This document shows, piece by piece, positions 18,396 through 50,769 of a DNA stretch of 64,000 nucleotides; the first letter of the stretch is position 1; every line of letters starts with the position of its first letter. The translations under genes and the position numbers were made by a program. This stretch comes from Phorcus lineatus (lineage: Eukaryota > Mollusca > Gastropoda > Trochida > Trochidae), in assembly GCA_921293015.1 (NCBI GenBank), contig OV121092.1, positions 47,453,064 to 47,517,063 of the forward strand, in the 5' to 3' direction. The notes beneath the pieces are model-generated. The model worked only from the letters and a program-made list of their open reading frames with translations, was not told where the DNA came from and did not search any database.

Positions 18396-19783
18396 TAATG
18401 ATGAAACTTGCTGACATCATCAATTCTTCTTTCTTCATCTACATTTTAGTTTCCGATAGGCAATTGTTCTCCTATGCCATCCTTATCTTGTAATCACATC
18501 CGCAATTAATATCTCTGAAAAAGTTCAGAAATTTCAAGTATAGTAATCAGCATTTCCAACTTTTAAAAGTTCCTGGTAAAAGGTCACAAACCAATTGCTT
18601 CTGGCCAAAAACGGTTTTGACAAAAAATAATGCAAGTGCAAAAAGGTGGTTTGAGTCTATTCATGTATTCAGTTCTGACTCACAAGGGCAAGAGAGAGTG
18701 GAATTAGAGGAAGGTTTAAAAACAAAATTGAGTCAATCTGCCTTCAATTGCACCATTGTCAGGAGCACAAGCTATCCATTACACTTAATATCTCTCAACT
18801 GACTGTAAAAAAATTCTGTATTGTAAGTTCAGCAATCCAAAAGCATTATTTGTAATTTGGAAGGCAAAAGTTATGATACAGCACTTGTATTTCTGACTCG
18901 CATGCCTTTAATCTACATAAAAAAGTGATAACTTTCAATTCACCTAAATTTTTATGAAGAGACTATTTCATATTAAGAAGTTCATCTTGCTCAAATGGAG
19001 CAATAATTCTTAGAAAATGGCCACTTTCAGAAAATATATCTGTAAATTTAAACACAATAAAACACAACATTTCGTATTTCAAAGAAATTATTTTTTAAGG
19101 CATTCATGCACCTAGAATATTCATGAATTGAAAAAGTTATAAAACATGATAATTTCCTAACAAATAAAATTTTATCATAAGCTGATCTTGAAAGTAAAAT
19201 GTTATCAAAATAGATATTAGAAATTATCAAATGATGTTAAGTTAAGGAAGAGAAAAATGATTAATGTAGAGTCCTTTAACAAGTTATGTCCTCATATAGT
19301 CTTATTAGCAGTTATACATATTACCATCTTCTACCGGTAATTATATTGAAAATTAATCATTTTTGTCATTGTTTTTAACTCCAGGAATTGGTTTTACATG
19401 TTTTGATAACTACAAAGAACTATGAGACTTAAGCTGATGAAAGCAGGCAACAAGACACCGCTAGAGAAATATTTCCACAGAGCCTGATCCTTGCTCTCTC
19501 TTTCCTCTATCCAGGCTCCATGACTGTTGTAGTTCCATCCATTGCCACCAGGGGCAGCACCTCAATTAATCAGAAGCACCTCTCCTGACCTTTCTAAATT
19601 TGGAATGACCTTGAGTCCCTGTGGCAACGATTGACATCTAAAAATGTCGTGTTTTCATACTAAGTCAGTTGATTCCATTTGATTAACATTGGGACTTGGT
19701 CATTTCATTGCCATTGAGGGAGACACTCTTGCATTTAATATGATCATCATTCAGTATCAGTCATTTTTGGATGTTTCTGTCAG
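18396..19783. other. Non-coding DNA, nothing recognised
   Basis: The small frames at 18617-18802 (plus) and 19048-19230 (minus) lack domain features. No repeat was seen. Confidence 0.5.
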
Positions 19784-19897
19784 ATGAATCGGAAGTCAAT
19801 ACTTGAATACATTATTAAGATAGATATTGTGGAGGATGTAACAACTATGAAAATATTACTGTTGGAAAGATTGCTTGAAGATATCGTGACAGCCTTC

Positions 19898-20652
19898 ATG
19901 AAACCAACAACTATAAGAAGAGGGTATGCAAAAGTCATGTTGAAAACTAAAACTATAGCAAGAAGATATGCAACAGTCATGTTGAAATCTACAAATGCGG
20001 GGAGAAGTTATGCAATAGTCATGTTGAAACCTACAACTAAAGGAAGATGGTATGCAATGGGCATGTTGAAACCTACAACTAAAGGAAGATGGTATGCAAT
20101 GGTCATGTTGAAACCTAAAACTAAAGGAAGATGGTATGCAATGGACATGTTGAAACCTACAACTATAGAAAGAGGGTATGCAATGGGCATGTTGAAACCT
20201 AAAACTAAAGGAAGATGGTATGCAATAGTCATGTTGAAACCTACAACTAAAGGAAGATGGTATGCAATGGGCATGTTGAAACCTACAACTAAAGGAAGAT
20301 GGTATACAATGGGCATGTTGAAACCTAAAACTAAAGGAAGATGGTATGCAATGGGCATGTTGAAACCTACAACTATAGAAAGAGGGTATGCAATGGGCAT
20401 GTTGAAACCTAAAACTAAAGGAAGATGGTATGCAATAGTCATGTTGAAACCTACAACTATAGAAAGAGGGTATGCAATGGGCATGTTGAAACCTAAAACT
20501 AAAGGAAGATGGTATGCAATAGTCATGTTGAAACCTACAACTAAAGGAAGAGGATATGCAAAAGTCATGTTGAAATTTTAAACTAAAGGAAGAGGGTATG
20601 CAATAGTCATGTTGAAACCTACAAGTATACGAAGAAGGTATGCAATAGACGT
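19898..20652 (+). repeat. 42-bp minisatellite, about 18 copies, open in three frames
   Basis: The unit is ATGTTGAAACCTACAACTAA plus AGGAAGATGGTATGCAATGGGC. The 42-bp period is a multiple of three, so a 265-codon frame runs through it on plus (19784-20581), with a 14-residue repeat MLKPTTKGRWYAMG, and long frames also run on minus (19856-20701 and 20008-20568). Openness on both strands is what a stop-free repeat gives by chance. There is no signal peptide, no splice context and no homology that I recognise, so I annotate a repeat, not a gene. Confidence 0.93.
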
Positions 20653-20871
20653 TCTTCCACTCCATGAAGAAAAACAATTGAGCCTTATAACTATGATACA
20701 ATATACTTTAAAAAAGTAGTGATAATTGAAAAAATACCAAGGTAACACTAACAAAAAAGGTTGAAATATACAAAAATACACCATAACATCCAAACTTCTC
20801 TGAGGTTAATCTATTTTTTTATTACTGAAGTGCTCACTGAAATAGTTTAGACAGTTGAAGTACTAGTAGTT

Positions 20872-21574
20872 CAGCGAGGAATCCTAGGGCTTCACCAAGA
20901 TATGTAGATAAACTGAGTAACATCAAGTCATCTACAGTAAGGACTCCTAGGGCTTCACCAAGATATGTAGATGAACTGAGTAACATCAAGTCATGTACAG
21001 CAAGGAATCCTAGGGTTTCACCAAGATATGTAGATAAACTGAGTAACATCAAGTCATGTACAGCAAGGACTCCTAAGGCTTCACCAAGATATGTAGATAA
21101 ACTGAGTAACATCAAGTCATGTACAGCAAGGACTCCTAAGGCTTCATCAAGATATGTAGATAAACTGAGTAACATCAAGTCATGTACAGCAAGGACTCCT
21201 AAGGCTTCACCAAGATATGTAGATAAACTGAGTAACATCAAGTCATGTACAGCAAGGACTCCTAAGGCTTCACCAAGATATGTAGATAAACTGAGTAACA
21301 TCAAGTCATGTACAGCAAGGAATCCTAGGGTTTCACCAAGATATGTAGATAAACTGAGTAACATCAAGTCATGTACAGCAAGGACTCCTAAGGCTTCACC
21401 AAGATATGTAGATAAACTGAGTAACATCAAGTCATGTACAGCAAGGAATCCTAGGGTTTCACCAAGATATGTAGATAAACTGAGTAACATCAAGTCATGT
21501 ACAGCAAGGACTCCTAAGGCTTCACCAAGATATGTAGATAAACTGAGTAACATCAAGTCATCTTCAGCAAGGAC
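20872..21574. repeat. 63-bp minisatellite, 11 copies, open on the minus strand
   Basis: Units start AAGGACTCCTAAGGCTTCAC and contain AAGATATGTAGATAAACTGA and GTAACATCAAGTCATGTACA. Units alternate between CTCCTAAGGCTT and ATCCTAGGGTTT forms. The minus strand is open for 240 codons (20834-21556), with a 21-residue repeat MLLSLSTYLGEALGVLAVHDL less its last residue. It lies only 220 bp from the 42-bp array. Evidence for a real repeat protein is weak. Confidence 0.93.
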
Positions 21575-22279
21575 ATAAAGCTAAATCTCATACCTAAATC
21601 AACGATATCCATAAACCCAATATATTTAAATCTTTCAATCTTAGCATGAACATTAGAGGTAATCAAAGAATAGGAGATTCAAAATGTGTAGATATAAATA
21701 TTTTCATCATATGAGCTGACTGATTAGTTGAGAAATTGAGCCATTGGCTCTTTAGCTATCAGTCTTTGCATGATTTACTATCAGAGTTTCAAGACTTGAA
21801 AGTTGCTTACTACGATCTATTAACTGTCTGATCTAAACTGTGTGAAACTAGTGAAAGTGCTAACGCAATAGCTTAATACACAGCAACAATGACAAGGTAA
21901 GCTTGAGTGATACCAAAACCTCCCCTACCATACTTAGATATAAGGACTATAGCAATGAAATTTATAAATCTGAGTCCCTTTACAACTTGTCCTTATGCAA
22001 TCCAAATTATTTCTTAGAAATTCATTAAAAATAAGAACTCAAGGTGTTAGACTTGACTTGAACATATATTGGCAATGATGTCTTAAAATGATCATCTAAC
22101 TTCAAACATCAAGACAAATAGTCTAAAATTTCTTAAATAAATAACTAACAAGAACTTGAGTACTTGTGGAAGTCCTTCATACAACTGAGATGGATTTCTG
22201 AAAATATGAGTGTCCTAGCATTACAGGTTCCTCTGGAAAAGAAAGTTGAAGCTTGAAAATCCTGCAACACCCATATTCT
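21575..22279. other. Non-coding DNA, nothing recognised
   Basis: No gene or repeat was seen between the 63-bp array and the TIR element. Confidence 0.5.
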
Positions 22280-41129: not shown

Positions 41130-41510
41130 CTAAGATGCCTAGCGGTGAGAACAATCGAAAAAAAAGTACTTTATCAGACAATAAAGGTATAGTTTTTTCA
41201 TGACGTAACAATTGAATGACGTTATATCCGCTCTTCCCCGCTGCCCCCTCGTGATCAAGCGTCCATGGTAACCTTTCATCTCGGTTCTTTCGATCAACAG
41301 GGCTTATCCCTATCAATGTCTATCGTATTGGCGATTTGCCGATAATGTTTCTTTTAATGGAGACTAGTTTCGAATCATCTAGTTCTATTTACCGGAAAGA
41401 AGAATGGAAAGCAAATGCTTGTCGACTGTCGAGTCACCGCGTTGTTTCACATCAACCGTCTTTACCAGGTTCAATGTGATAAAGTCAACCTAATAATTAA
41501 GTAATTCTAG
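41130..41510. other. Left flank of the LTR element inside the insertion
   Basis: It contains AATAAAGGTATAGTTTTTTC (from about 41174) and, further on, ATGGTAACC. The foldback element at the right end (50559 onwards) contains AATAAAGTATAGTTTTTCCC and GGTAACC in the same orientation. This weak similarity is the main hint that both ends belong to one element. No gene. Confidence 0.45.
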
Positions 41511-41610
41511 TGTCCAAGGATTTAAAATGGTAAAAGTAAGATAAACGTATATCAAACTAATAAGTAAGGTTGGAATGAAGGGATGGGAAATGAGCAGTCC
41601 ACATATGTTA
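41511..41610 (+). mobile_element. 5' LTR remnant (first 100 bp)
   Basis: 100 bp from TGTCCAAGGATTTAAAATGG to GTCCACATATGTTA are identical, base for base, to the first 100 bp of the 3' LTR at 49393. After that the sequences are unrelated, so the rest of this LTR, the primer-binding site and most of gag have been deleted. The retained part lacks the TATA box and polyadenylation signal found in the 3' copy. Confidence 0.93.
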
Positions 41611-42249
41611 TGCACAAACTTGTACGCTACAAAAGCATGTAACAAGACCAACAACAAGATATGCCCGTTACGCCAAGTCTAACTCCTATTCGTCATTTCT
41701 CTCGTCCTTCAGGTAAACTGACCAATCCACTTAAGCAGTTAAGCGAGTCAAAACAACAGAATTTACCACAGGGAAAACTGTCATCAACAAGCACGACTGG
41801 GCTAGGTGCCATAAAATTCGCACGGGCGTGACGTAATGAACAGACTGTACAGAGTGGCGCATTGTGATTTCAACTGAAATACCGCCTTAAATAATCGTTT
41901 AATTACCATTGATGTAGATATATCATTTTTACACCAAACGCTTAATAGTTTTACATCGTCAAATGATTTATCTAACTTTATCTGAAAATCGTTAATTATT
42001 GTTTTTCCCCGTGATATTGTTACGATAGATGTATAGATCACGAGGCAATGATTCTGTTTATGGCGTCACAAAAAGCGGCCCATCAAAAGTGGCATTCAAA
42101 AACGGCTTTCATTACCAAACTGAACATTATGAGTAGCGACCTTTGACGCACTGTACACTATTGAAATCAGACATTCATATATTCCAAAGAAAATAGTGAA
42201 ATATGTTGTGGTAACGTTAACTTGAACTAGAAATGCAACCCAGTAGCAT
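41611..42249 (+). other. Element interior upstream of the gag remnant, unassigned
   Basis: A 56-codon frame (41661-41831) begins MPVTPSLTPIRHFSRPSGKL. It is basic and Ser/Pro-rich with no domain I recognise. It could be decayed gag N-terminal sequence or unrelated DNA joined by deletion. The rest shows no supported frame. Confidence 0.35.
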
Positions 42250-42646
42250 ATGTCTACGCTCACCCCCAAGGAGAATATAACTAGAGGTGCTAAGTGCGTT
42301 AGGTGTGAACGAGTCGGACATATATATATAGATAGCATGCATGTGCCTCAATGGTCCCCTGACTCACAGAACCTGACTAGGGTTACAAGCCAGTGCTACT
42401 CCCTTCCCCGCTAATGACCCAAGACAAAATGATAAGGATCTCAGTAATACAGGTCCACTTACTTTGGCTTCGACCCAATTAAGTAGCATACTACCTAGAC
42501 TAGAACAAACAGGGATAAACCCCAGTCATAGAGAAATTGAAAAGGTTAGGTTTAATGATGAGCTTGACAGCCGGGTGGTTGAGGTTAGGAAGCTTGAGGA
42601 CGAGAGTATAGACACTAATGCTGTTGACTTGTGCCGCAGACGGTAG
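42250..42646 (+). pseudogene. gag: gag nucleocapsid remnant with broken CCHC knuckle
   Basis: A frame at 42250-42414 contains KCVRCERVGHIYIDS. The spacing C-x2-C-x4-H matches the retroviral nucleocapsid zinc knuckle, but the fourth ligand (codon 42334-42336) is Ser where Cys is expected. One base change (TGC to AGC) would explain it. The frame ends at 42412, and a second overlapping frame to 42646 is acidic and ends DLCRRR before a stop, so at least one frameshift lies between. No matrix or capsid sequence is recognisable. Its place upstream of the pol fragment fits gag. Non-functional. Confidence 0.72.
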
Positions 42647-42739
42647 CTCATTGATGATAACATCCACCGCCTTGTTTGGAAATCGCCGTCCTAGAGGACC
42701 TTGTCGCCGACGGGGACAACGGTAATCGAGAAGTCACAA

Positions 42740-43080
42740 CAGAAGGACAGGGTGTCACCATTCATACAGTGTCAAATCGAAAGGAAGATAAACCCAAACC
42801 CACACCATAACACTTCGACCTTGAAGGATCGATCATCAATGCCGACGAACAGACGAGACTTAGGACTTTCCTTGATCAAAACAGAGACTTGTTAGCCAAA
42901 GAAATAACAGAACTAGGAAGAACCCACCTGTATAAGAGCCACAACGACTCTGGGACAAATCCGCCAACAAAGTAAGCCCGTATCCAGTCTTACCAATACA
43001 ACGTGAAGAAATCGAGAAACATGTTCAATAAATTTTGGGAGCAAGAGATTCAAGAGGAACAGTGAAATAAAGAAAAAAAA
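42740..43080 (+). pseudogene. pol: pol remnant: protease-RT linker and start of reverse transcriptase
   Basis: One frame carries a TAA stop at about 42810 and then FLDQNRDLLAKEITELGRTH. This is the typical Ty3/gypsy segment just before the reverse transcriptase, where ELGxTxL is followed by a DTG/DSG-like word and PP. The match ends at a stop near 42972. The next part, SPYPVLPIQREEIEKHVQ, lies in another frame and resembles the PYR-x-P-x-x-R-x-x-I-x-x-x-V start of RT; it also ends in a stop. The RT core with YxDD, RNase H and the integrase core are absent, so a large internal deletion has occurred. Family assignment rests on motif recognition. Confidence 0.78.
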
Positions 43081-43097
43081 GGCCAAACGCATTTGAG

Positions 43098-43230
43098 GCA
43101 TAAAACACTATTTAGTTGCACTAAAGGGCAATTCGCCGCCTCAGTGGGTGACCCACACGACCTTACCGACCCCACTAATAGAAGATTACCATGCTTGCAA
43201 GACATGGGTTGGGAAAGCACGTGCCGCAGT
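43098..43230 (+). pseudogene. pol: pol C-terminal remnant, chromodomain-like
   Basis: In one frame KHYLVALKGNSPPQWVTHTT is followed by LPTPLIEDYH. The layout YLVxxKG-x(n)-WV-x(4)-LP-x(2)-LIEDY resembles chromodomain-like tails found after the integrase of many Ty3/gypsy elements. A stop precedes it and another ends it at about 43240. It sits where the end of pol should be, just after the RT start, consistent with deletion of everything between. The resemblance is short, so certainty is limited. Confidence 0.45.
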
Positions 43231-43656
43231 AGCCAGATTTTAACGCCTTGCTACACAGCAACAGACAGAAGAGAACAGTGAGTAGATGAATGAACTGTAT
43301 CACAACAGTATCCTAAGTGTGTAATTATTCTATATTTAGCGTTACTTGCCATCCATACTCCAACCCTACATTCCTTGGGTGAAGCCGTTAATTACGACCA
43401 GGTGGACTGCCAGCTATCAACATGGTGTGTTATCACAACACAGCCGACCAGGATAAACTGACCAGACAGATGAACCTCGTTATAGCACGGTAGGCATATA
43501 ACAACCAAGGGCCAAGATACCGATCTCAACATGCCACAAGCAGGACAAGGGTGCATCACTTTCATAAATGGGATAACTATTCGACGTATAAGAAGACACA
43601 GAGACGATCAGTGTGTTCAATAATACCCTCCCCGTTGCTTATTATTTAAACCGGGC
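43231..43656 (+). other. Unassigned element interior between pol remnant and small ORF
   Basis: No frame of note. Base composition is closer to the env region than to the AT-rich flanks. Confidence 0.4.
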
Positions 43657-43938
43657 ATGACAAATGACATTGATAGTGAAGTAGTACAATGTGGTAGACC
43701 TGGTTTTTGGGCTACTGTGTATGGCAACTATCATGAAGAGAGGAAGGAATTTGATTATGGGACGTATAAAAGTAACATAGAGAGCCTGAGTAGCCTGGGT
43801 TTGTGGCCTTTGGAAGGTCACTGCGCGCGATGTGGCTGGGAGCCACCAACTGTCGACAGAAGGGAATCACAGGCTTGGAGTCTGTGGGAGAGAGAGGGTC
43901 TGATCAACCGCTTTCTCCAATTTACAGCGACATCATAG
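43657..43938 (+). CDS. Hypothetical 93-codon ORF upstream of env
   Basis: It starts at ATG 43657 and encodes 93 residues. Visible features are an acidic start (MTNDIDSEV), CGRPGFWATVYG, and CARCGWEPP near residues 56-64, a C-x2-C pair without a matching second pair. There is no signal peptide or membrane segment. It lies between the pol remnants and env, where some retroelements carry accessory frames. No splice acceptor is obvious directly before it. It could be a genuine small gene, an exon or a chance frame. I do not recognise a family. Confidence 0.35.
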   Translation: MTNDIDSEVVQCGRPGFWATVYGNYHEERKEFDYGTYKSNIESLSSLGLWPLEGHCARCGWEPPTVDRRESQAWSLWEREGLINRFLQFTATS

Positions 43939-44451
43939 CTAGTCCTGTATAGTCGAATTGAAGACAGTCTAGATCTTCAGTGTCATAACATGTCTGGGCG
44001 AGCAGATGTGATGTACAGCCCTTAGAATGGTTCTAAGGTGCAATTTACCTGCCTATTCAGGTAAATGGGTCTTTACAAAGAAGGAGTACCGGGGAATCAT
44101 GCCGGGCATGGTGCGACCCCCCCGAAGAACCCGTTATACAAGGTTACAAGAAATATGCAGGCGTTTCTATGTAGGTATTGATTGACACTCGTTTATTGAC
44201 AGGGACTAGTACCTGTCATGAGGGAGATGGCCAACACTGTCATGCCCGGGGTGAATAAGAACAAACGTGGACAAGTGATAGCGTAAATAGTATGATATCA
44301 AGTTAAGAGGGGAGGGTTAGGAATATAGCATACCATTGGATAAAGCTATCATTACAATTGTCTATGACAATTACCATAGTAAAATATTAGGATTTGATAG
44401 GTTGACAGATCATTAAGAGTACCCACCAACTCTATGCAGATATAATAATCA
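43939..44451 (+). other. Untranslated region upstream of env
   Basis: No supported frame. A short inverted pair, CATGCCGGGCATG, lies near 44099 and CATGCCCGGG near 44240. The region ends in the env splice-acceptor-like sequence. Confidence 0.4.
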
Positions 44452-44467
44452 ATGCAGTTTGTTACAG
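44452..44467 (+). promoter_or_regulatory. Splice-acceptor-like site before env
   Basis: GCAGTTTGTTACAG ends at 44467, four bases before the env ATG. A TTTGTTACAG tract ending in AG right at the start codon is the arrangement used for a spliced env mRNA in retroviruses and errantivirus-like elements. The donor has presumably been lost with the 5' part. Confidence 0.5.
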
Positions 44468-44471
44468 CACG

Positions 44472-47012
44472 ATGCGCCTTGAAGCAGCGATCCTGCTTGT
44501 GGGCATATTCCCACTTTCACTGGCCACTTCTGAGGATCGTCTACGAATGCATTATGGAGTAATGTTTCAACATCTTGGTCGGTTACCACTATTTGACCAG
44601 ACGTGGGTACACACTTACGAACTGAATATGCCGGAACTTCAGGACAGCCCAACACCCTACCCATGGAACCACGGCTGTGTTAACCACCGTACCAACGACA
44701 CATCACCGGGTCCACAATGTGCTGTCGCAGTCCAGCTGGTCAGGAAGATTTTGGCATACACTGACGCCATCAGGAAAATAGCTCACACCACCCTCAACGA
44801 ATCTATAGCAGCCATTACCGAAGTCGTCCCCGAGTCTCGTCCCCCTAAGAGCCGATCACGTAGCCGTCGCGCATTTTTGTCCTTCCTGGGAGACATAGCA
44901 CACAGCCTCACGGGTGTAGCAACGGATGACGAAGTGAGACGAGTAGAACATCACCTGGAGCTTCTAGCAACACAACTTCACCTACGGGACAGCGTATACA
45001 ACGTATCAAATCACATCATGGCGTCGTTCATGGGTCGCACAAATAAACGAATGAGCAACCTGTTGACACTGTTTAAAACAGAACATGCACGAATACTACG
45101 GGCCGAATATGATACCCAGCGTGACGATTTGTGGCTAGAACGAGTGTTAGGAACTCTGTTACAACTGGCGACAAAGGAAGTACACTGGTCACTCCTCACC
45201 ATGACGGACGCAGCCAGAGTGCAACGAATGACTAATTCACTGCTTCAGTCACGACTTTCATCTGATTTGATTCCTCCCCATGCCCTCCGAGCAACACTCA
45301 ACAACATTTCTAGAACTTTACAACAGACGCATCCGCATTTTAAAGTATTATATCCTGGTCTCCAGTATTACTACACTAGCGTCCGGTTTGTGACAAATCG
45401 CCGTAACAACAAGATATTCATATCCATCCTGATACCAGTTACTTCCAAACACGATGACTTTCAAATTTACCGCACCCTCACGTTTCCAGTACCGGTACAG
45501 ATTAATTCATCAGATGCAACCATGATACAGGGAATAAGCGAAGTTTTTGCATATTCTACCAGGGCCCAGCGCTTCATGGAATTCTCAGCATTGCAATATC
45601 AACAATGTAGTGGCGACGCTCATCAAGCCTGTACGGCCATGCCGGCTGAAGTGTCTGTCCTTAAACCAACCTGCACGTCTGCCGTTTTCGCTAATCATAT
45701 TGATATGACTCACAAATTTTGTAGTTTCCATTTTGTTCCTAACGGAACGATAACGGATGCCATGGAGTTATCAACAGGATACGTGTTACTGTCCAATGTT
45801 CCGGAGATGACCTACTCATGTCAAGGAGAGGTGACCCTGCGACAGGGCTGTCATTTCTGTCTGGCCCCGATCCTGTGCGACTGTACTGCAGAGATAGGTC
45901 CCTTATTTCTGCCGCCAAGAATCGACTCATGCACTGATCAAGGATCAACGTCCCAACTACGCTATACTGTCAACGTCGCCGTATTAAGACACTTTTTCTC
46001 AACTAAAGACATTTTAAACCGCTTGCCCAGCCTACTAGCAGACGAGCCAATTACATCACAGACGGCGACATTTAAGTTGGCAGAACATAAATACCAGAAG
46101 GCACTTGGCATAGACAGACAAATTCAAATTAAACTACACCATGCAGTGACCAGGGCCAAGGCTAATCAAATTATTTACACTAATCCGGCTGATCCCATCT
46201 ATCTTCATGACCTGGCTGACATACCCTCCGATGGTATCACAATGTACATTGTTTACACGATAATGGCGTTCATAATTCTCCTTGCTGTAAGTGTAGGGTT
46301 TCTACACCGACGGGTACAAGTAATGAGGCTCCAGTTAATTGCCCATGCCCATGCCTCCGTGGCGTTAGCGGCTACTACACAACCGTGGGTGTGGACGCCG
46401 CCGCCCACGTCACCCACAACGACTCATCCTTCGCTCATTGATCGTTACCTGGTACCATTATGGGATCTTGAAGTTATCCTCCTGGCCCTGGTATCATCTG
46501 TGGTAATCATCCTGATAATATACATTTTTCGACGCTATTTCTCTCAGAAATCTACGCTGTTTCTGGCTTTCTCCACAACTGGTATATCCGTACGCCTGCC
46601 CCTCCTGACATTTTCTGCTCCCCCGGCTACCGTGACGCTTACGCACACACAGATCTCTCCTGCGGCTATCTCTGCCCGACTCAGCTGCTGCCGAGCCATG
46701 GTTTCCATCAACTGGAAGTCTCAGGGCATTGCTCTCGAAAGTGGCCTCACTGGACACCGCTTGCCCCTGCCTCGTTCGATCATCGTTCCACCTTGGACTG
46801 GAAGCAGACTGAATAAAGTGCTACAAGGACCCTATCTACTTCATGTATATTTGGTCTACCAAGGCACCATCTACCCAATCCACGCCGGACCACACGAGAT
46901 GATGTCACCCCCGCCCGTCCTAGTACCATGCAACTACGAGTCCTCGCCACCACCGCGCAGACATGCCAGCGACGACCCGATGCTTCCCCTGGACTGGACA
47001 CATCTGTCATAA
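44472..47012 (+). CDS. env: Envelope-like glycoprotein, intact 846 codons
   Basis: A class I-like fusion glycoprotein of an LTR element would act at the membrane. Visible features: a signal peptide at residues 1-19; at least six N-glycosylation sequons (N75, N109, N177, N278, N345, N424); a furin-type site SRSRSRR at 127-133; and directly after it a Gly/Ala-rich hydrophobic stretch (134-150) followed by acidic and then heptad-like residues. That is the order seen in baculovirus F and errantivirus Env proteins. A cysteine cluster lies at 450-487, a first membrane segment at 590-611 and a second at 667-687. About 155 residues follow the second segment, rich in beta-prone Val/Leu/Thr. Two membrane segments and this tail are unusual for an F-like protein. 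It is far more GC-rich than the flanks, with no internal stop. The start is chosen for the signal peptide and the acceptor. Function is inferred; no homology search was run. Confidence 0.8.
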   Translation: MRLEAAILLVGIFPLSLATSEDRLRMHYGVMFQHLGRLPLFDQTWVHTYELNMPELQDSPTPYPWNHGCVNHRTNDTSPGPQCAVAVQLVRKILAYTDAIRKIAHTTLNESIAAITEVVPESRPPKSRSRSRRAFLSFLGDIAHSLTGVATDDEVRRVEHHLELLATQLHLRDSVYNVSNHIMASFMGRTNKRMSNLLTLFKTEHARILRAEYDTQRDDLWLERVLGTLLQLATKEVHWSLLTMTDAARVQRMTNSLLQSRLSSDLIPPHALRATLNNISRTLQQTHPHFKVLYPGLQYYYTSVRFVTNRRNNKIFISILIPVTSKHDDFQIYRTLTFPVPVQINSSDATMIQGISEVFAYSTRAQRFMEFSALQYQQCSGDAHQACTAMPAEVSVLKPTCTSAVFANHIDMTHKFCSFHFVPNGTITDAMELSTGYVLLSNVPEMTYSCQGEVTLRQGCHFCLAPILCDCTAEIGPLFLPPRIDSCTDQGSTSQLRYTVNVAVLRHFFSTKDILNRLPSLLADEPITSQTATFKLAEHKYQKALGIDRQIQIKLHHAVTRAKANQIIYTNPADPIYLHDLADIPSDGITMYIVYTIMAFIILLAVSVGFLHRRVQVMRLQLIAHAHASVALAATTQPWVWTPPPTSPTTTHPSLIDRYLVPLWDLEVILLALVSSVVIILIIYIFRRYFSQKSTLFLAFSTTGISVRLPLLTFSAPPATVTLTHTQISPAAISARLSCCRAMVSINWKSQGIALESGLTGHRLPLPRSIIVPPWTGSRLNKVLQGPYLLHVYLVYQGTIYPIHAGPHEMMSPPPVLVPCNYESSPPPRRHASDDPMLPLDWTHLS

Positions 47013-47226
47013 GGATACGTATTGGTTTCTATTTGTTTTAATTAGTGGCTGATATATAACGTAACCTGACATATAATGTAAACGACTTTGCGTTCAATCA
47101 AAGGATAAAGTGTATATAGACGTAGGAAACCACTTGGTAATGTATACTGAGAACAGTATTATAATGGTTGCATGATTAACATATAGTGTCCCTGTCGTTT
47201 TGTTCATTTTATATTCATAGTGCGAT
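47013..47226 (+). other. Intergenic stretch after env
   Basis: AT-rich compared with the env gene, with no frame. It separates env from the next acceptor-like site. Confidence 0.4.
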
Positions 47227-47238
47227 ATCTCCTTTCAG
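47227..47238 (+). promoter_or_regulatory. Second splice-acceptor-like site
   Basis: ATCTCCTTTCAG ends at 47238, two bases before an ATG at 47241. The pyrimidine tract is better than at the env site. Confidence 0.4.
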
Positions 47239-47490
47239 AAATGTCTACGTGGTATCGGTATCGCAGTTCACCCACTACATCCAGGCTTAACGCTACCATC
47301 ACGTTCTAGCCGTGCCGTCACTTCTTGCCTAGCGGACCAGGAGGGTGTCGCTATCACATGATCCCTGACATCTTCTATTGAACCGCCTGGCATTTCTGAT
47401 GACCATAATGACGATAGTCGTAACTTGGGTGTCGATGAACCGACCACGATTGTTGTAAACTGGACCGCCGCCTGCTGCATGTTATATTAA
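47239..47490 (+). pseudogene. Possible small exon or accessory frame with one stop
   Basis: From the acceptor, one frame runs 40 codons to a TGA at 47359-47361 and then 42 more codons to a TAA at 47488. The second half is acidic (DDHNDDSR) and ends VNWTAACCMLY. The ATG at 47241 is in a different frame and gives only 22 codons. This may be a decayed accessory gene, a non-coding exon or chance. Confidence 0.3.
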
Positions 47491-47624
47491 CCACTTATCC
47501 TTACATTTTCAATACCAGGCTAAACTTAAAATCAAATGTAAAACAAAACAAAAAAAATAAAAAATAATAACGCTGAATTTGAAACCACTTTGGAATATGA
47601 TCTGCCTATTTAATAGAAAATAAC

Positions 47625-47639
47625 CTTTTTCAATTACAG
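47625..47639 (+). promoter_or_regulatory. Splice-acceptor-like site before the CARD/RING-like gene
   Basis: CCTTTTTCAATTACAG, with AG at 47638-47639, lies 9 bp upstream of the ATG at 47649. It mirrors the arrangement before env and supports translation from its own spliced mRNA. Confidence 0.5.
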
Positions 47640-47648
47640 ACAATACAG

Positions 47649-48779
47649 ATGAACCCCATTCTTGAGTACCCCGATGACTTCGCATTGGGGGTACGCGGAT
47701 GGGACGCGCGGGTAATTAACCAACGCATTGCCCGAACATGTGCTGATGCTTCCCCCCTACTGAGGGACATGTTCCAGACAAACGAGGCTCCCATTATCAA
47801 TGGGCCTCGCACTCGAGGCGTCGCCCGAATCGTGTTTTGGCACATGGTCCTCTTCCTCTCCGGAATCTGCGCTGATTTGGTGCCCTTGGTCACGCAGTAT
47901 GACTCCGTGCAGTGCGTCGTCGCTTTCGGGATGGTCGATATGTTCGAAAACTCGGCCTTAGTATCATCCGTATGCAAAGGTCTGTTGGACAATGATGGTA
48001 GGAAAAGCCCCGGACTGGACCAGGTCCTCCACCTATTGCATAGTAAGGGGACAGACGCACTCGGGCAATTTATAGATTGCTATGCAAGTGTTGAAATTCG
48101 GGTGGGCATTTCCATGGCGTCCCTACGGTCAATTACATATAACCAACCCATATCAACTGTTAACGACTGGACACGCGCTCTCCGCCCCTACCTTACACCC
48201 TTGCGGTCATGGCAGTCTGCTTATCGGTGTGTGATGTGTCATAACACTTTCTCCACACCAGGCTTCTGGGATTACGACCGACCCGTTCCCTTTCCATGCT
48301 GCTTTGCAACAGCCCATCTATCTTGCCGCATCCGTCTTCGATCAAACACCGACGGTAGCCTAAGATATTTTCCCTGTCCCTCCTGTGACACTCCCTATAC
48401 GAATGGTTTCTTAGATCCCATCTTTCTCCAGTGTACCCAGAGTTTTGTAAACGACATACGCGAAAATCATATCCATCACGAATACGCTAGAACCCCCTCC
48501 CCAAATGAATGTAACCCCCAGCCTTGGCGATCTCCTCTCCTACAGGGTGACAGTAACGTCACAATCCGAGAGCTGCGAACAAGGGATTTCGTCACTCAGG
48601 TGACTCCCCCAGTGTCCCTTTTGTCCTTTGATGACTGTCCCTGTCTTCCTCGCCCGTACACCTTGCACGTCCCCACTGCTCTCCCAGACGAAATGGACGT
48701 AAAACCAATTATGGACTCATTTTCATGCCTCTTCCCTGTCTCTGACTACTCCGACAGCGACACGACGGTCACGGAATAG
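47649..48779 (+). CDS. CARD-like plus RING-like accessory protein, intact 376 codons
   Basis: The protein has a helical N-terminal part. At residues 72-150 the pattern of hydrophobic positions and the segment VLHLLHSKGTDALGQFIDC (126-144) resemble the last helices of a caspase-recruitment domain, where a hydrophobic helix, KG or RG, and a Phe-containing helix are typical. Residues 194-246 hold C194-x2-C197, C217, C218, H223, C226 and C243-x2-C246 (CPSC), a RING-like zinc arrangement with non-standard spacing. The acidic tail (DYSDSDTTVTE) is long and Pro/Ser-rich. No signal peptide or membrane segment, so cytoplasm or nucleus is likely. CARD plus RING is known from inhibitor-of-apoptosis proteins, so a role in cell death or innate signalling, perhaps as E3 ligase, is a guess. 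No BIR domain is visible. It is the last gene before the polypurine tract, with high GC and no stops. Domain calls are by eye. Confidence 0.6.
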   Translation: MNPILEYPDDFALGVRGWDARVINQRIARTCADASPLLRDMFQTNEAPIINGPRTRGVARIVFWHMVLFLSGICADLVPLVTQYDSVQCVVAFGMVDMFENSALVSSVCKGLLDNDGRKSPGLDQVLHLLHSKGTDALGQFIDCYASVEIRVGISMASLRSITYNQPISTVNDWTRALRPYLTPLRSWQSAYRCVMCHNTFSTPGFWDYDRPVPFPCCFATAHLSCRIRLRSNTDGSLRYFPCPSCDTPYTNGFLDPIFLQCTQSFVNDIRENHIHHEYARTPSPNECNPQPWRSPLLQGDSNVTIRELRTRDFVTQVTPPVSLLSFDDCPCLPRPYTLHVPTALPDEMDVKPIMDSFSCLFPVSDYSDSDTTVTE

Positions 48780-49357
48780 GGTACTACTGACTATCAACAC
48801 CCGATCGTCCGACGCATCTGCCCGACGTTGTTCCTAGGGGATGCAGTCCCGACCACACAGTATGATCACAGAGCTGAGGACAGCTCTCGCCGTCACACCG
48901 AGAATGTAACGACACCTCTCTGAGACGGCACATGAAATTAAACACCGATTAGAAAATTATTTAGCGATAAATTTTAACAAAACGGTATGAACAAATTTGT
49001 ATACGATGGTAATTGAATGATATTCACAGATAACTATCGTTATCGGGTCAACAATGGAACAACATGCAGCAGGTGTTTTACGTTAAGGCGGAAAGGGTCA
49101 ATTAGAACACGTGAAATATTGTTATTTGTGCACGAATTGCCAGTATAAACAATTCGTTTGTATCATGTTTATATCTATACATTGTATAAGGTAGGGTACT
49201 TTGTGGTTTATTGATAACAAAGGTTTGAGAGAGTGATAATTGAAGGAGAGACCGACCTACTTAGGATATATGTCCATCATTTAACGCAGTAAGAAGTAAC
49301 TAGGACAAACATTGGTCAAGATCGATTAAAATATAAGACAAATAAACAATTATTTAC
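48780..49357 (+). other. 3' untranslated region of the element
   Basis: No frame of note. Composition falls from GC-rich to AT-rich towards the polypurine tract. Confidence 0.5.
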
Positions 49358-49373
49358 AGCTCGAGGACGAGCT
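49358..49373 (+). other. Hairpin before the polypurine tract
   Basis: AGCTCG-AGGA-CGAGCT is a perfect 6-bp stem with a four-base loop, six bases before the polypurine tract. A GA-rich 'gagGACGAG' word just before the PPT is common in Ty3/gypsy elements. Confidence 0.6.
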
Positions 49374-49378
49374 TGATC

Positions 49379-49392
49379 AAAGGGGGGAGAAT
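49379..49392 (+). promoter_or_regulatory. Polypurine tract
   Basis: AAAGGGGGGAGAAT lies immediately upstream of the 3' LTR and would prime plus-strand DNA synthesis. Position and sequence are typical of Ty3/gypsy elements. Confidence 0.88.
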
Positions 49393-49808
49393 TGTCCAAG
49401 GATTTAAAATGGTAAAAGTAAGATAAACGTATATCAAACTAATAAGTAAGGTTGGAATGAAGGGATGGGAAATGAGCAGTCCACATATGTTATTTTCGAC
49501 AGAGAACTGGGGTCTTGACCTTGGGATGACCAGTGGGGGAGAAAGGCAGATATAATTAGCCAAAAGTAAGTAAGGGTATGAACTACGATAGGAGGCATCG
49601 GCAAGGTTCGCAGTTCTGAGACTACAGGTAGAAAAGCTTGCTCAGCACTGCCCGGACCGGGAGCAAGGTGTCCACAAAAGGTTAGGTGGGGTGATCTTGA
49701 CCGATGGTTGGCTAGAGTATAACGTAGGCGGCTTCGAATTCTAAGAAACATCCAGGGAGTGCTGGAAGTGAGGCTTGTGGCCTTTTACAGGACCCAAACA
49801 TATGCGGG

Positions 49809-49816
49809 TATATAAG
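49809..49816 (+). promoter_or_regulatory. TATA box in the 3' LTR
   Basis: TATATAAG lies at LTR position 417. Transcription from here would run out into the flank (49.9 kb onwards), not through env. The equivalent site is missing from the truncated 5' LTR. Confidence 0.65.
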
Positions 49817-49827
49817 AGGTGTACATC

Positions 49828-49833
49828 AATAAA
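49828..49833 (+). terminator. Polyadenylation signal in the 3' LTR
   Basis: AATAAA, 12 bp after the TATA box, could end transcripts of env and the CARD/RING-like gene. The close spacing to TATA implies a short R region that includes this signal. Confidence 0.55.
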
Positions 49834-49914
49834 TCTGGGTCGCTGCTTTCACGTCTCAAACTGAGCCCTGCCTTGTGTTTTCACTGAAGTTGTGTTGTGT
49901 GCATGTGTTGGACA

Positions 49915-50521
49915 ATATCCTGAGCCTGGACTTTAATCTTTAAATACCGTACCTCTTGCTGAAGTGCATAAGACAAGATCCTATAAAAACATCCTTGGAT
50001 ACTAGGTGTACAGCCCCAACAGTCTGCTTATATACGAGACTAAAGCATCACCTTTATGATCACGTTTATGACAGCAGCAAAAAAATAGATGTCCGGATTC
50101 AGTCCGCCATCACGCTTCCAAAACAAACAATACCCATAATTCCTTGTGGAATGTTAACCACGTAATAAGCCTTATATGGGCAATGTGGCCCGCACTGCAT
50201 AATCGCACGACATGAGTTTGTAAAAGTAAAGGTTTTTTTAAACAAGAGGTGTTAATTTGTTTGTTTAAGTTTTTAAAGAAAAAAATAAGAAGAAAATATA
50301 ATTCAAAATTGAATAAATGAAAAAGTTAGGGTGCAAAACTTCAGTAATCAAAGCTTTAACAAACTAAATGTCGTTTTAAACTAGGGGTTGAGTTCCATAC
50401 TTGGAATAGCCAACAGTTAGCCCTGTTCATGGATTATTAATGTGAGCAGTGTAAACACTATATTTAATTTCGAGATTATTAAAATCAGAGTGGTCCCCGT
50501 ATAGATTATTTTAGCATCTTA
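49915..50521. other. Right flank of the LTR element inside the insertion
   Basis: A frame at 49956-50165 (69 codons, TTG start) contains YTRLKHHLYDHVYDSS but has no family I recognise. Otherwise AT-rich without structure. Confidence 0.35.
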
Positions 50522-50769
50522 GAAAAGAAATAAAGTTCGCTCTACCCCAATGTGTTTTGTAATAAAGTATAGTTTTTCCCTGAACTATTATAACGTTAAA
50601 GCACTCGGACGGTAACCCCAATGTGTTTTGTAATAAAGTATAGTTTTTCCCTGAACTAATATAACGTTAAAGCACTCGGACTACCGTCCTCGTGCTTTAA
50701 CTATAATAGTTCAGGGCAAAACTATACTTTATTACAAAACACATTGGGGTAGAGCGAACTTTATTTCTT
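50522..50769. repeat. Foldback element at the right end of the insertion
   Basis: GAAATAAAGTTCGCTCTACC (from about 50527) is inverted as GGTAGAGCGAACTTTATTTC (ending about 50767). The arms of about 85 bp include CCCAATGTGTTTTGTAATAA and TATAGTTTTTCCCTGAACTA. A second direct copy of the left arm starts near 50615, making two left arms to one right arm. The array could fold into a long hairpin and abuts the insertion boundary. Confidence 0.85.

Follow-up and report, generated by a model that had tools for sequence, protein, structure and literature searches.

An intact reading frame of 376 codons, here called ORF3, lies after the envelope gene of an LTR retroelement in the genome of the trochid gastropod Phorcus lineatus, and it raises the question of whether such a frame is a gene of the element, a piece of host DNA or a frame open by chance, and what it does if it is a gene. 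The stretch analysed, referred to below as the window, is 64,000 nucleotides of DNA (C19:47453064-47517063), and the genome searched is the 958-Mb assembly, in 74 contigs.

The element as a whole occupies positions 41511-50001 of the window and has CTAG on both flanks, read by eye as a target-site duplication (41507-41510 on the left and 50002-50005 on the right, no strand); all of its other features lie on the + strand. Only the first 101 bp of the 5' LTR are present (41511-41611), and this stub is 100% identical to 49393-49493 in the 609-bp 3' LTR (49393-50001, TGTCC...GGATA), which has 40 matches genome-wide when fragments are counted in, many of them over 1-609. The stub is followed by a degenerate gag-pol remnant (41612-43653) and by an intact env gene (44472-47012) encoding an F-type fusion protein of 846 aa (PF12259 Baculo_F, E 1.2e-6, 27.9 bits with a cut-off of 24.1). 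ORF3 (47649-48779) is, as had been described from the sequence, a single uninterrupted frame of 376 aa placed between env and the polypurine tract AAAGGGGGGAGAA (49379-49391) and LTR, with a 3' untranslated stretch between ORF3 and the tract. In 300 Markov copies of the 8.5-kb element, no run free of stops exceeded 244 codons, against 376 for ORF3. A further frame lies between pol and env (43624-43938, FKPGMTNDIDSEVVQ...); its start resembles L024, L025 and L027, and a Pfam search of it gave no match. Just outside the element is an inverted repeat (50525-50769) with 68-nt arms, 99% complementary and spaced by 109 nt, and at 19739-21580 the window has long open frames on both strands with short internal repeats, evidently tandem repeats rather than genes. 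An Rfam search of the window gave no match.

The element that carries ORF3 is a low-copy, env-bearing Ty3/gypsy endogenous retrovirus. The sequence-only reading had named the type correctly, but the proof does not lie in the window copy, which has an RT-type linker look by eye at 42811-42975 and otherwise pol remnants only, with no Pfam match for the three pieces tested. It lies in a sister copy on C9, where piece L043 matches, in order, RVT_1 (4.4e-20), RT_RNaseH, Integrase_H2C2 (3e-18) and rve (1e-13), which is the order of RT, RNase H and then integrase found in Ty3/gypsy elements (Metaviridae). The LTRs, the polypurine tract and target-site duplications within the 4-6-bp range agree with this placement, the duplications being 4 bp in all four elements read by eye (window, C9, C11 and C1), and the F-type env, present as a separate gene and above the PF12259 cut-off, is an errantivirus-like trait. 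The LTRs of the ORF3-bearing family end in TG...TA, not TG...CA. We also considered and rejected a Troyka identity: Troyka elements are described as lacking an envelope, making 3-bp duplications and ending in CG...CG (PMC12440569).

Whether ORF3 DNA (at least 8 matches) or protein (at least 14 matches, E up to 1) is the query, whole-genome searches converge on the same seven places, and no further relative was found at E up to 1. By blastn, a family LTR lies within the 1.5-kb flanks of six of these loci (window, C9:22.99M, C11:25.17M, C25:42.06M, C25:4.891M and C9:37.38M); the seventh, C25:4.889M, has the family 3' UTR and forms one array with the adjacent C25:4.891M. In the surrounding array (C25:4.887-4.915 Mb), dispersed repeats separate family LTR fragments and two old copies of ORF3. 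At C25:42.06M, ORF3 is shortened and the neighbouring LTR runs in the opposite direction, so this copy has been rearranged. Env lies upstream of ORF3 at four of the seven loci, env itself being split by some 7.7 kb in the C11 copy; the other three loci, all more diverged, showed no env match in the flank examined. Each of the window, C9 and C11 elements is bounded by a separate 4-bp duplication of its own, which shows that LTR, env and ORF3 moved as a unit. The proposal that the gene belongs to the element is therefore borne out at all seven places, and the finding that would have spoken against it, a host exon unlinked to retroelements, did not appear: no ORF3 copy was found away from the element. 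The whole-genome search found no host donor gene for ORF3 either.

Comparison of the copies establishes that purifying selection on ORF3 was as strong as on env. Between the window copy and C11 we counted 45 synonymous and 22 nonsynonymous changes (dN/dS 0.135), and between the window copy and C9 46.5 and 29.5 (dN/dS 0.175), so that the coding sequence has been kept by selection, as in accessory genes of the retroviral type; the env of the window gives 0.143-0.178 against its sister copies. The corresponding ORF3 values are 0.219 for C25:4.889M, 0.201 for C25:4.891M and 0.208 for C9:37.38M, and 0.074 across 100 codons for the partial copy at C25:42.06M. Third positions account for 48 of 67 changes against C11 and 49 of 76 against C9. 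Low dN/dS and mostly third-position changes imply that the protein was constrained while the lineage replicated. Pairs without the window copy give higher values (0.54 for C11 with C9, 0.41 for the pair in the C25 array, and 0.42-0.54 among other diverged copies), and these older or broken pairs count against the explanation that we favour; higher dN/dS between broken copies is, however, expected if such copies decay freely after insertion. Over window positions 46131-50001 compared with C9 and C11, ORF3 synonymous divergence is ~0.20 while LTR divergence is ~0.043-0.046, and local divergence jumps from stretch to stretch; the synonymous excess suggests recombination or uneven rates.

The state of the copies might be taken to mean that ORF3 is a chance or passenger frame, or a host exon acquired once that does nothing for the element. 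Among the seven copies, six are broken or partial, the frame being fully open only in the window (C9 has two in-frame stops, C11 has ORF3 in two frames, and the others are partial or have stops), and a mobile derivative on C1 has no ORF3. We disfavour this account and consider it very improbable: 45 synonymous against 22 nonsynonymous changes has a binomial probability of ~1e-12, assuming a neutral nonsynonymous fraction of 74.5%, and every copy found is tied to the element. We conclude that selection has kept ORF3 as an accessory (non-structural) gene belonging to the element, and that it is neither a frame open by chance nor an exon of the host.

The window copy is itself probably dead and non-autonomous, to judge from its sequence, because only remnants of pol are left and its 5' LTR stops after 101 bp, with the rest of that LTR, the leader and the donor missing. 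The C1 derivative (C1:54756712-54763185, L050-L053) is a 6.5-kb member of the same family whose two LTRs have 0 differences in 609 sites; in the part read, all but about 500 bases, it has no ORF3 and little env or pol, and one part shares 82% identity with the C9 pol piece. Since its LTRs are identical and ORF3 is absent, a deleted form has moved recently, its proteins for movement presumably coming from other copies. For comparison, the two LTRs of C9 show 5 differences in 585 sites, and those of C11 show 5 in 602. The pol deletion is common to the C1 derivative and the window copy, which are 99.76% identical over window positions 41611-43653. The window 3' LTR nevertheless differs from the C1 LTR at 26 of 608 sites, and such a divergent LTR beside a nearly identical shared interior suggests that the window copy is a mosaic.

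Searching the genome with env gave 53 matches, six of them pieces of its own family and 47 others at 22-29% identity. These 47 distant F-type env matches, many with open frames of ~800 codons, indicate that the host has many env-bearing elements. The errantivirus-like cousins L029-L042 resemble the ORF3-bearing element in having a related F-type env (24-26% identity across almost its full length), but differ in that none of the 14 has a sense frame of at least 100 codons in the first 1.5 kb downstream of env, where the longest has 96. Among the loci examined, one low-copy family alone carries ORF3. Since both the C1 derivative and the 14 cousins are without ORF3, movement can proceed in its absence, at least with help. 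The same cousins weigh against the suggestion that ORF3 encodes another structural protein, part of the virion or associated with the envelope, which would fit with selection comparable to that on env and with the hydrophobic residues around 61-79 (mean hydropathy 1.8). The gene is absent from elements with a related env, no signal peptide or capsid-type match was seen, and the hydropathy is modest; we judge a structural role to be a slim prospect.

How ORF3 would be expressed is suggested by the sequence around the start codons. A splice-acceptor-like site had been noted before the gene, and it is indeed there: the pyrimidine-rich TTTTTCAATTACAG (47626-47639) ends at 47639, nine bases 5' of the ATG, its last nine bases are kept in the window, C9 and C11, and diverged ORF3 copies hold related sites. 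A similar acceptor-like sequence, TTTGTTACAG (44458-44467), stands four bases 5' of the env ATG and is the same in all four env starts of the family, while the leader contains a donor-like AAAAGGGTGAGATATTTGC directly after the 5' LTR that is the same in four of four leaders (C1, C9, C11 and C25). We suggest that the leader donor, cut between AAAAGG and GTGAGATA, is joined to the acceptor before the ORF3 ATG, with a spliced env mRNA made in parallel, and that ORF3 would thus be expressed from a spliced mRNA of its own. One donor and two acceptors, as in this predicted layout of env and ORF3, correspond to the simple retroviral plan.

Inhibitor-of-apoptosis proteins with CARD and RING exist as a class, and ORF3 had been proposed to be a captured host regulator of death or immunity of this CARD and RING kind, turned into a counter-defence protein, with a caspase-recruitment fold at residues 72-150. 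In the host genome, CARD exons gave at least 61 matches, several of which form clusters on C7, C12 and C15; the death-domain repertoire is thus expanded, and donors exist. ORF3 itself has no Pfam match to CARD (PF00619), BIR or RING at E up to 10. A host CARD profile, built from 28 of 30 fetched loci after L068 (internal stop) and L085 had been excluded, gives it 1.9 bits, against 48-91 bits for 12 true CARDs left out of the profile. At least four of the 44 control frames are ORF3 copies (L023+0_55, L025+0_51, L028+1_23 and L044+2_0), and two L026 frames probably are too; only those four reach 1.9 bits or more, the best of the other 40 being 1.1. Profile-profile comparison aligns residues 115-145 onto the last helices of CARD, with a CARD probability of 3.5% for the whole of ORF3 and 5.6-10.6% for sub-ranges. 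The ORF3 score was reached by 1 of 500 shuffles, by 21 of 4,000 in the HMM test and by 0 of 400 column shuffles, counts that apply to one chosen domain and are uncorrected for that choice. With single sequences, env (20.1) and an env piece (19.7) outscore ORF3 (17.5) in the same profile test, and reversed ORF3 reaches 16.5. AlphaFold, applied to 14 alignment rows as a check by structure prediction, returned a model with a mean pLDDT of 27.9, too poor to speak for or against a death fold.

The profile similarity of ORF3 to CARD is thus weak, far below that of true CARDs, and with no host relative found and strict RING spacing absent, we regard capture of a CARD and RING regulator as improbable. 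The likeness to inhibitor-of-apoptosis proteins is confined to the general idea of a helical amino half with a zinc motif; the ORF3 motif is not C-terminal, having 130 residues after it, and no BIR was matched. Broader searches gave nothing nearer. ORF3 alone and the alignment of its pieces found nothing at E 1 or less among ~5.8 billion proteins, in which env likewise found nothing at 0.01 when the 8,000 candidates with the most words in common were scored; phage records and IMG/VR held no match, and Pfam, PDB and PHROGs held nothing at the curated cut-off. The best PDB match, a D-aminopeptidase (E 0.006 / 0.0023, residues about 228-280), was rejected as probable chance because it covers a short stretch of an unrelated archaeal-type enzyme. 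A Bcl-2 assignment from a BH1/BH2-like look was also dropped, its score of 14.6 falling within the shuffles (mean 13.0, 95% at 17.6).

The other domain proposed for ORF3, a zinc site of the RING kind, has fared better in part. Eight conserved Cys/His candidates ending in CPSC are present (C194, C197, C217, C218, H223, C226, C243 and C246, in the order C4-H-C3; window positions 48228-48386), whereas strict C3HC4 spacing and a RING profile match are not. Where the rows of alignment A1 cover them, the candidates are conserved: all eight in the C9 and C11 pieces, seven in the C25:4.889M pieces, which do not cover C243, and C243 and C246, the only two covered, in the C9:37.38M piece. A loose C4HC3 pattern occurred in 0 of 20,000 shuffles of the ORF3 protein and a looser eight-ligand pattern in 8 of 20,000, both patterns having been written after the sequence was viewed. 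Like RING, PHD and RING-CH fingers, the motif has eight ligands, CxxC at both ends and H-x2-C in the middle, and its C4HC3 order is that of PHD and RING-CH; it differs in that the third and fourth ligands are adjacent (CC) and in matching no strict spacing or profile. The strict RING spacing (C3HC4 or H2) is absent, and those of PHD and RING-CH are not matched although the C4HC3 order fits. For the 84-residue zinc piece, the RING profiles of Pfam yield only Prok-RING_1, at E 8.3; the best sub-threshold matches are PaaD zinc ribbon (0.0056), TRASH (0.0095) and RYYR-CCHC (0.019), and no ligase-family profile in Pfam matches ORF3. Residues 194-246 are thus a probable zinc site, which we assign to none of the families tested, and we think it likely that they fold round zinc as a cross-brace finger.

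A zinc domain placed after env would also suit a regulator like Tas, Tax or Rev, acting on nucleic acid or a nuclear partner to raise transcription or RNA export. The location, the presumed multiply spliced message, the zinc motif and the acidic Ser/Asp-rich tail SDYSDSDTTVTE all agree with such a protein; at the Pfam cut-off, however, no nucleic-acid-binding profile is matched, and we consider a regulator of this kind rather unlikely, if well within reach. Our main reading, to which we give a probability of roughly 45%, is that ORF3 is an accessory gene, expressed by splicing, whose zinc finger may form a ligase-type module directed against a host factor. The finger would serve as a RING- or PHD-type ubiquitin-ligase module, the amino half would bind the target, and the ORF3 protein would remove or block a host factor that limits the element. 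That specific division of labour, a ligase-type finger with a target-binding amino half and removal or block of the limiting factor, is offered more tentatively. The most novel version, a lentivirus-like accessory gene, evolved or captured, spliced and selected, with a death-fold-like helical half and a C4HC3 cross-brace finger of a new type working by ubiquitin ligation in counter-defence, would be a long shot. A counter-defence role as such is plausible.

The complex retroviruses of vertebrates are well known for accessory genes directed against host defence. ORF3 resembles these in being an extra gene near the 3' LTR with a presumed spliced message; it differs in that theirs belong to Retroviridae, and no sequence relation to ORF3 was found. 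Accessory genes of complex retroviruses are mentioned in a review that also treats the additional ORFs of plant elements (PMC7264820). Among gypsy-type elements, bdelloid rotifer LTR elements likewise have a family-specific extra ORF3 after pol, but in the part of the paper available those ORFs are GDSL esterases, DEDDy exonucleases or env-like, mostly replacing env, with no zinc-motif protein described (PMC5408684). The statement in the sequence-only reading that no such layout had been described went too far, as LTR elements can, according to a review, capture ORFs downstream of env (PMC6431247). Extra ORFs after env are thus already known in LTR elements, and ORF3 adds a variant. The available part of PMC8905726 has nothing on the ORF3 gene, of which we saw no description in open-licence papers; nor did we see in them a host-defence-countering accessory gene in an env-bearing invertebrate gypsy element. 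As a selected, family-specific orphan gene placed after env and likely to encode a zinc domain, ORF3 offers a testable case outside Retroviridae. Should it target a host factor, that factor would lead the way to a host defence pathway.
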